Of a stretch of DNA of 13,659 nt, positions 8,805 through 13,658 are shown in pieces. The position numbers and the translations under genes are program-made. The notes beneath the pieces are model-generated. The model was not told the DNA's origin. It did no database searches and saw only the letters and a program-made list of their open reading frames with translations. Numbering within the stretch: the first letter of the stretch is position 1; the number at the start of each line of letters is the position of its first letter. Source of the DNA: an uncultured Spongiibacteraceae bacterium (GTDB lineage: Bacteria; Pseudomonadota; Gammaproteobacteria; Pseudomonadales; Dasaniaceae); assembly GCA_937969395.1 (NCBI GenBank), contig CALBVI010000457.1, positions 1 through 13,659 of the forward strand. Direction: 5' to 3'.

Positions 8805-9758
8805 TTAAACATCTACACTCAAACGTAAAACATCTTCAACTAACTGCCCAAAATTTTTACCATCAGCTTTTGCCGCCATCGGCACTAAGCTATGGCTAGT
8901 CATGCCAGGCACTGTATTGACTTCCAATAAAAAAAACTCACCTAACTCATTTTGCATCACATCAACTCTGCCCCAGGCCTTACAACCAACGCTTTTAAAA
9001 GCGGCTAGAGCCAATTCTTTTATTTCTTCTTCCTTTTCACTACTTAAACCTGACGGCAAAATATAACGCGTATCATCAGCAATATATTTGGCATCATAAT
9101 CATAAAAGGTATGATCAGTCTCTAAACGAATAACAGGCAAAGCACGATTCTCTAAAATAGCTACCGTAAACTCTGCGCCGCGAATAACTTGCTCAGCTAA
9201 TACTTCATTATCGAATGTCTTAGCCGCCAAATAAGCCGCCTCTAACTCTGATTCCGTTGTCGCGATAGCCATACCAATGCTAGATCCTTCGCTAGCCGGT
9301 TTAATAATAACTTCACCCCATTTTTCGATTAAAGCTTTGCAATCAGATACATCTCTCAAAACAGTAAAATCTGGTGTCGATAGATTTTCGCTTTGCCATA
9401 ACAACTTCGTTTTTATTTTATCCATTGCCAAAGCAGAAGCACTTACACCACTACCGGTATACGTAATACCAACCTTCTCTAAAGCACTTTGCACAGTACC
9501 GTCTTCACCACCTACACCGTGCAGTGCAATAAAAGCGTGTTTATAATTTTGCACAACGTCAGTTAGCCAATCAGGTGTAGCAGTATCGATAGCAACTACC
9601 TCGATGCCCTGCGACTTTAACCCTTCGATAATGGCAGCGCCGCTTTGTAGAGAAATCTCACGCTCAGCAGAACTACCACCTAATAAGACAGCTACTGGCC
9701 CTTGTAATTTCTTACGCCATTCGACTAATAAATGAGCTTGCCTAACTTCAGAATTCAT
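8805..9758 (-). CDS. ddl: D-alanine--D-alanine ligase
   Basis: Ddl is a cytoplasmic ATP-grasp enzyme that joins two D-alanines to make the dipeptide added to the peptidoglycan stem by MurF. The 317-residue product has the N-terminal motif VLLGGSSAEREISLQSG near residues 24-40 with the catalytic glutamate and serine of the family, HGVGGEDGTVQ near 80-90, the ATP-grasp segment IIKPASEGSSIGM near 151-163, GRVDVM near 263-268, and the metal and substrate site LLEVNTVPGMTSHSLVP near 277-293. The cluster position suggests the ddlB branch. The ATG at 9758 is supported by GGTGAG (9771-9766) 7 bases upstream. It starts 25 bases after murC, so the two are probably cotranscribed. Confidence 0.97.
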   Translation of the reverse strand: MNSEVRQAHLLVEWRKKLQGPVAVLLGGSSAEREISLQSGAAIIEGLKSQGIEVVAIDTATPDWLTDVVQNYKHAFIALHGVGGEDGTVQSALEKVGITYTGSGVSASALAMDKIKTKLLWQSENLSTPDFTVLRDVSDCKALIEKWGEVIIKPASEGSSIGMAIATTESELEAAYLAAKTFDNEVLAEQVIRGAEFTVAILENRALPVIRLETDHTFYDYDAKYIADDTRYILPSGLSSEKEEEIKELALAAFKSVGCKAWGRVDVMQNELGEFFLLEVNTVPGMTSHSLVPMAAKADGKNFGQLVEDVLRLSVDV

Positions 9759-9783
9759 TTAAAAACTCACCATTTCCTCAAAA

Positions 9784-11223
9784 TTATTCTTCACTTTGTG
9801 ACGACGCTAACTGCGCAGCTATACCACCCACGTTGCCGGCACCTTGTGTAAGTACTACATCTCCAGGCTGCACAACACCAGCCAACACAGCTGACACATC
9901 AGCAATGTCACTTACAAAAACAGGATCAACTTGGCCCCGACTGCGAATACTTCCGCACAGACTACGGCTATCCGCACCTGATATAGGATCTTCTCCTGCA
10001 GAGTAAACTTCTAGTAATAACAAACTGTCGACTGTTGATAGCACCTGTACAAAATCTTCATAAAGATCTTTAGTACGGGTATAACGATGAGGCTGATAAA
10101 TCATCACTAGTCTACGATCAGGCCAAGCTTGTCGAGCAGCAGAAATAGTTGCTGCCACCTCAGTCGGATGATGCCCATAGTCATCAACCAATAATGCACT
10201 ACCCTGACCTTTTTCATTGTTAACGCTTAAATCACCGTAAAGCTGAAAGCGGCGACCAACACCTTCAAAGTTTGCCAAACCATTCTGTATCGCAACATCG
10301 TCAACGCCTTCATCCGTAGCCACGGCAATAGCAGCTGTTGCATTTAAAACATTATGATCACCAGGCATATTAATAGTGACATCGATATCGGTCAGGTCAC
10401 CTGGACGAGATACTGTAAAGGAGGTTTTTAAACTTTCTTTCTTGATATTAGCAATTGAAAAATCTGCATCTTCACTAAAGCCATAGGTCAACATCGCACG
10501 GCTAATTTGTGGCATCAATTCACGCACAACATTATCATCAATACAAAGAACAGCTATACCGTAAAAAGGCAAATTATGTAAAAACTCTGTAAATGTTTTT
10601 TTCAATTTTTCAAAATCGTTTTCGTACGTCGCCATATGATCGGCTTCAATATTAGTAACGACGGAGACCATAGGCTGAAGGTGCAAAAATGAAGCATCGC
10701 TTTCATCCGCTTCTGCAATCAAATAACGACTTTCACCTAATTGTGCATTGGTTCCGGCACTATTTAGCAAACCACCAATAACAAAGGTAGGATCTAATTT
10801 TGCAGCGGCAAATATAGAGGCAATTAAACTCGTTGTAGTTGTTTTACCATGGGTCCCCGCAATCGCAATACCATGCCTATAACGCATTAATTCCGCTAGC
10901 ATTTCCGCTCTAGGAACAATCGGTATACGCTGCTCTCTAGCAGCAATAACTTCCGGATTAATATCACTAACCGCCGTCGAGCAAACGACAACATCTACAC
11001 CTTGAATATTCTCTGCTTGATGACCAATAAAAATAATGGCGCCTTTAGCGTCTAGGCGTTGGGTATTTTTTGATACCTGAATATCTGAACCAGAAATCTC
11101 GTATCCCATATTCAGTAATACTTCAGCAATACCGCACATGCCCGCACCACCGATGCCGACAAAATGAATACGTTTAATGCGACGCATTTCAGGGACTATA
11201 AATTTTGGTTCAATATCACTCAC
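9784..11223 (-). CDS. murC: UDP-N-acetylmuramate--L-alanine ligase MurC
   Basis: MurC adds L-alanine to UDP-MurNAc using ATP, the first amino acid of the peptidoglycan stem peptide, in the cytoplasm. The product is 479 residues from the chosen start. It has the N-terminal Rossmann loop [15 protein letters not shown] near residues 20-34, the Mur-ligase P-loop [12 protein letters not shown] near 122-133, [10 protein letters not shown] and EADHM in the central domain, NVLNATAAI, then [10 protein letters not shown] and YQPHRYTRT in the C-terminal domain. The start is placed at GTG 11223: GGAG (11234-11231) lies 7 bases upstream and the gene then overlaps the murG stop by 8 bases, a coupled layout. 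A TTG at 11250 would lengthen it by nine codons without a ribosome site, and ATG 11187 is also possible. The sequence closely resembles Pseudomonas MurC. Confidence 0.96.
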
Positions 11224-12294
11224 TCGCAAGCTCCAGACAAACTGATGCAACTTTTTCCGCAGCGTCAGTTTTTGCTAATCCACGCGCTGCAATTGCCATT
11301 GATAACAAGCTCTCGCGTGAATCATTAAACTCAATTAATGCTTGTGCCAAGCTCTCAGCCGCCATAGATGACTGAGGCATTAACACGGCGGCGTCATTTT
11401 CAGATAACCAGCGTGCGTTTTCAGTTTGATGATCATCAATTGCATAAGGTAGTGGTACCAATATAGAAGCAACACCCGCAGCCATTAATTCAGCAACCGT
11501 TAACGCCCCTGCACGACACAAGACCACATCAGCCCAGGCATAAGCTGCAGCCATGTCATCGATAAATGCTTCGGTTTTCACCTCAAGATTCTTAGCACAA
11601 TAATCACCTGCCACTACTTCAACATGTGCCGCCCCTGTCTGATGCCAAACCTGTGGGCGATCCTCTTCACTAATTATCTTTAAAGCTTGCGGCAACATTT
11701 CATTGATTGGCCTTGCACCCAAACTACCACCAAGTACCAAAAGCTTTAATTGACCAATATTCTGATAACGCTGTTGAGGCTCAGCAATGGCTGCAATAGA
11801 AGCTCTCACCGGATTACCAATAAATATACTTTTACTACCTAAATCTATTGGGTAACCCGTCAACGCACGATCAGCAACAGCAGACAATAAACGGTTAGCA
11901 GTACCCGCGACTGCATTTTGCTCATGAATCACCAGCGGACGACCTGTTAACCAAGCAGCCAAGCCACCAGGGCCTGATACAAAACCGCCCATACCTTAAA
12001 TGCAAACTGGCTTTAATTTAATCACTATGCGAAGCGCCTGATAAATAGCACCGATTAAATTAAATATAGCTTTCAGCATGTTAAAAATATTTTTCCCGCG
12101 TAAGCCCGAAACCATAATGTAGTGAATCGGTATATCTGCAGCAGGCACCAAACGCTCTTCAATACCTGAACGTGTTCCCAGCCATTCGACATTAATGCCC
12201 TGCTGTCGCAAACAGTCAGCTGCGGCCAGCGCAGGGAACACATGACCACCAGTGCCGCCAGCCATTATTAATACCGATTGATTCAGGTAACTCG

Positions 12295-12298
<4 letters not shown>
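11216..12298 (-). pseudogene. murG: murG (lipid II synthase) interrupted by one in-frame TAA
   Basis: MurG is the inner-face GT-B glycosyltransferase that adds GlcNAc to lipid I to give lipid II. Read through, the frame is 361 codons including the final stop, normal for the family, but codon 101 (11998-11996) is TAA. The first part (12298-11996, 100 residues) holds the first glycine loop MAGGTGGHVFPALA and GLRGK and ends at KPVCI. The second part resumes in the same frame at GMGGFVSGPGG, the second glycine loop, and carries HEQNAVAGTANR, VLGGSLGA, FIDDMAAAYAWAD, CRAGALTVAEL and DDHQTENA. Relatives have leucine at the stop position (KPVCVLG-type), so TTA to TAA explains it. An ATG at 11992 lies three bases past the stop and opens a 258-residue frame; AAGG precedes it by one base, too close for a normal site. 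The murG ATG overlaps the ftsW stop by 4 bases and has a strong GAGGAGG (12313-12307). It may be a sequencing error; the rest shows no decay. Confidence 0.85.

Positions 12299-13658
<1,360 letters not shown>

Follow-up and report, generated by a model that had tools for sequence, protein, structure and literature searches.

The 13,659-nucleotide stretch of DNA analysed here (the window) carries the ordinary murG of a gammaproteobacterium, in which codon 101 reads TAA. It is likely that this internal stop reflects either an error in the consensus or a nonsense allele that is rare or has arisen very recently, with error taking most of that joint weight. Our evidence favours sequence error or very recent mutation over a new biological mechanism.

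The murG frame of the window

On the minus strand, positions 12298 to 11216 form a single murG frame of 361 codons (360 codons and the terminal TGA). Exactly one stop lies inside this frame, the TAA of codon 101 (11998-11996, minus strand), which stands immediately 5' of the glycine-rich motif GMGGF. The initial annotation had described an otherwise complete murG with an in-frame substitution rather than an indel. This was upheld by reading the frame, which is the same on both sides of the stop, and by comparison with the NCBIfam murG family (TIGR01133). With the stop written as X, the whole frame scored 328.7 bits against TIGR01133, above the curated cut-off of 250.25. Scored singly, the two pieces remained below that cut-off (226.4 and 83.5 bits) and covered consecutive parts of the 353-position profile (6-98 and 101-352). 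Based on frame, profile, and alignment, the upstream piece (100 aa; 11996-12298, minus strand) covers the beginning of MurG's first domain, including the GGTGGH motif. The downstream piece (258 aa; 11216-11992, minus strand), read from its ATG and placed by the profile, covers the remainder of that domain together with the second one. The solved MurG structures 3s2u, 7d1i, and 1f0k aligned to the window murG over nearly its full length.

The gene order around murG is ftsW-murG-murC. The upstream neighbour ftsW (12295-13536, minus strand) overlaps the start of murG, and the murC frame (9784-11250, minus strand) follows downstream; both were named by their sequence and the gene order, not by a family search. 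No internal stop was found in either of them, nor in the other frames of the window that were checked (nine in total, ftsW and murC included). At 9758-9784, ddl comes directly after murC, with no murB frame in between.

Codon 101 among relatives

A search with the X-containing MurG matched all 57 genomes (our own and 56 relatives), and a stop was present only in our own match. Codon 101 was a sense codon in each of the 29 murG loci that were fetched from those 56 relatives, where it encoded leucine in 26, isoleucine in two, and valine in one. The same was observed in all of the named genomes (the best 80 of 589 relatives; Leu 64, Val 12, Ile 4), whose aligned murG sequences were also free of stops. 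Among the homologous proteins listed (120, the best of 8000 scored, from which the window's own piece was removed), 116 of 119 carried leucine at this position and the other three carried phenylalanine, valine, and isoleucine, respectively. Leucine had been proposed for codon 101 in the initial annotation, and most relatives indeed have it. All 119 of these listed homologues were at least 353 aa long. The nearest protein among the matches listed was P0001, a full-length protein of 361 aa with 78% identity, and near relatives by name included Oceanicoccus, other Spongiibacteraceae, and the marine gamma proteobacterium HTCC2143.

Given that no stop was found inside the matched murG of any of the 56 relatives or 80 named genomes, the observation goes beyond chance. 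A comparison of the codon in sister genomes, proposed earlier as a check, returned a sense codon in all relatives examined, and within this set the internal TAA appears to be private to our own sequence. A stop conserved among relatives, as in programmed stop-codon recoding, was seen in none of the 29 loci and none of the 80 named genomes. Likewise, a split common to relatives, as in a split gene, was not recovered, with a murG stop in 0/56 relatives and 0/80 named genomes.

Sequence constraint after the stop

In the part of the protein that follows the stop, the window sequence was closer than P0001 (fewer differences) to each outgroup protein in 10/10 comparisons, although the ten outgroup proteins are related to one another and the comparisons do not amount to ten independent tests. 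In the part that precedes the stop, the two proteins were about equal, as the window was closer to two, equal for four, and farther from four of the ten outgroups. The columns that are invariant in 11 relatives were retained in 138 of 141 cases, and the three departures were the stop itself, one A to S, and one K to R.

This unbroken downstream constraint speaks against an old pseudogene, which we disfavour given that the sequence after the stop has not relaxed; the same argument had been made initially from the later motifs, which are indeed intact. As no sign of relaxed constraint was seen, the stop either arose very recently, is bypassed, or does not really exist. Overall, the window gene resembles MurG (TIGR01133) in its profile coverage (6-352 of 353), its ftsW-murG-murC order, and all but three of the invariant columns, but differs in the internal TAA at codon 101, which is absent from all relatives examined.

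Internal stops elsewhere in the draft genome

The window corresponds to contig C457 in a draft genome of this bacterium with 495 contigs and 2,490,184 bases (completeness 64.12, contamination 0.64). Family searches of this draft for rpoB and rpoC gave no match. To survey internal stops, we considered 81 contigs (80 fetched contigs and the window). After removal of 15 masked contigs, 66 remained, with 388,408 bases in total. Most of the 80 fetched contigs were sampled at regular intervals of contig number, and 12 were picked for earlier hits on them. We found 54 cases in which two neighbouring stretches of at least 60 codons share a reading frame on either side of one stop, and 23 of these pairs passed a filter for the absence of a longer overlapping frame; a second round added 7 pairs that passed, for a total of 30. 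The window pair was tested by NCBIfam, 11 pairs were tested by Pfam on the separate pieces, and 18 were assessed by eye only and mostly taken for gene boundaries.

Among the 11 pairs tested by Pfam, a single domain spanned the stop in one (L104). Three others (L052, the first pair of L099, and the last pair of L144) had unlike Pfam families on their two sides and were thus gene boundaries, and the remaining seven (three in L050 and one each in L051, L053, L072, and L107) had a Pfam family on one side or none. The L104 stop is a TGA (G000 contig C392, 1519-1521) inside an acyltransferase domain, where it cuts the Pfam profile between positions 70 and 77. The gene encodes an MFS / acyltransferase / AMP-binding fusion, and its counterpart in the relative G005 is a single open frame. 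As a side observation, L050 (G000 contig C26, 2497-5193) has four successive same-frame stretches, one of them with a phage major capsid protein E domain, and is perhaps a prophage or phage contig.

Comparison of G005 proteins (60 stretches) with the 66 contigs gave 38 aligned pieces with 11,523 codons, and stops appeared in four rows. Two of these stops were mid-gene, namely those of murG (TAA) and L104 (TGA), whereas the stops in L098 and L146 fell in the first 15 columns only and were taken to lie upstream of the start. In the opposite direction, 37 pieces (11,308 codons) aligned, and stops occurred in two rows, in both cases within the first 27 columns. If murG is left out, as it was selected for its stop, the comparison of G005 proteins with the contigs corresponds to one mid-gene stop per ~11,150 codons, a count too small for a firm rate. 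No frameshifts were detected in the G005 comparison, where the sign of a frameshift would be a single query split over two adjacent matches, and no stops occurred inside the 20 matches of four family searches (~8,770 codons, on contigs partly shared with the G005 comparison).

As a control, the loci around murG of 28 relatives (G005 omitted) gave 98 pieces with 34,720 codons and 18 rows with stops. In seventeen of these rows the stops were confined to the first 40 columns, and in the other one (L012) they lay near the end of a presumed ftsW alignment, such that none was mid-gene. This control is limited to the mur region of mostly better genomes, and the contrast with the draft is a descriptive one. 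Internal stops in the draft are occasional and not pervasive, and the draft is not error-ridden.

Origin of the internal stop

The most likely origin of the TAA would be a single wrong base in the consensus of a fragmented assembly, built from either a metagenome or a single cell. A less likely origin would be a real nonsense allele that is rare or very recent in the sampled cells. With either an error or a young allele, all observations would be accounted for and a special translation mechanism would not be needed. We place the weight here given the private stop, the unbroken constraint, the fragmented and incomplete draft, and the presence of another internal stop. Error was among several options listed in the initial annotation, and the balance has now moved towards error in the sequence or an allele of very recent origin. 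We infer that sequencing reads would not support TAA in most molecules.

What is generally known of consensus errors and rare nonsense alleles in draft assemblies agrees with our case in that a private single codon is affected, frame and constraint are intact, the source is fragmented and incomplete, and another internal stop is present. It agrees less well in that internal stops are uncommon in this draft. The error reading has to be weighed against the finding of only one mid-gene stop beyond murG in the codons compared with G005, against the lack of stops in the 20 family matches and of frameshifts, and against the nine clean frames of the window. A single further stop does not suffice to set an error rate. 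Our literature search retrieved no relevant report on a premature-stop, split, fragmented, or pseudogene murG.

Alternative explanations

A bypass of the stop, by readthrough or by restart, is improbable. We regard it as unlikely that a genuine TAA has become fixed and that MurG is made either by efficient UAA readthrough or as two chains cut before the second glycine-rich loop. As for readthrough itself, in which a suppressor tRNA or leaky termination would yield enough full-length MurG, it also appears an unlikely explanation. Since constraint is normal downstream and the draft yielded no murG other than this one, some form of bypass would be required if the stop were genuine, and the draft does contain a second internal stop in L104. 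However, that stop is a TGA and not a TAA, and it is thus not obvious that a single ochre suppressor could serve both; moreover, TAA terminates six intact genes of the window. The stop is also absent from every relative examined. A search for the ochre suppressor tRNA suggested earlier came back empty: by anticodon, none was present among the 16 tRNA genes found in the draft (64% complete), all of which have ordinary anticodons.

It is quite unlikely that an intact second murG or a functional replacement resides elsewhere in the genome and that the window copy is a fresh pseudogene. The 64% completeness of the draft leaves room for a missed second copy, which had been another of the initial options. 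Nonetheless, a PF04101 search of the draft returned one match above the cut-off, murG itself, and the other match reached only 21.2 bits, below the cut-off. Among the relatives, 55/56 had a single murG match; G044 has an additional one, which spans only 43 residues. The sub-threshold PF04101 match in the draft lies in a 357-aa frame (L002; G000:C475:2658-2915) that is perhaps another glycosyltransferase. One genome of the same genus, G004, has as its sole murG match a divergent sequence (G004:C105:11395-12426) with 31% identity, compared with 61-68% in the other five same-genus genomes. This match may reflect contamination, which is listed at 6% for that genome, or else misbinning or replacement; read as the last of these, it would indicate that replacement may occur in the group.

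A two-chain MurG, with termination at the TAA, restart at the ATG three bases further on, and assembly of the chains, is very unlikely. An in-frame ATG does follow soon after the stop and opens the 258-aa frame. The five-base ribosome-binding-like match before it ends one base from the ATG, compared with eight bases at murG's own start. Three of the six other starts that were compared (ftsQ, secA, and the M23 peptidase) have only three-base consensus matches, and a proper ribosome-binding site may thus be dispensable; for this reason the spacing is weak evidence against restart. In the general domain layout of MurG, the cut falls within the first domain, just before the motif that forms a glycine-rich loop, and not between domains, such that restart would give two parts of one domain. 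In addition, no split murG was found in any relative examined.

Reassignment of TAA to a residue in this organism, with which a murG frame that stays open through TAA would fit, is refuted in practice, since secA, lpxC, ftsZ, ftsQ, ddl, and murC all end in TAA (as had been stated initially, and confirmed here for all six) and the nine other frames have no internal TAA. A phage origin was rejected, as the murG DNA had no match in phage records ('near' mode search).

Implications

Were the stop genuine and fixed, the cell would rely on stop-codon bypass for an essential enzyme of peptidoglycan synthesis, a striking situation. The protein database searched already has the 258-aa downstream piece as a separate protein (P0002), and one doubtful base can in this way put a false short MurG into databases. 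As it stands, the main value of the internal TAA is as a caution for database entries.
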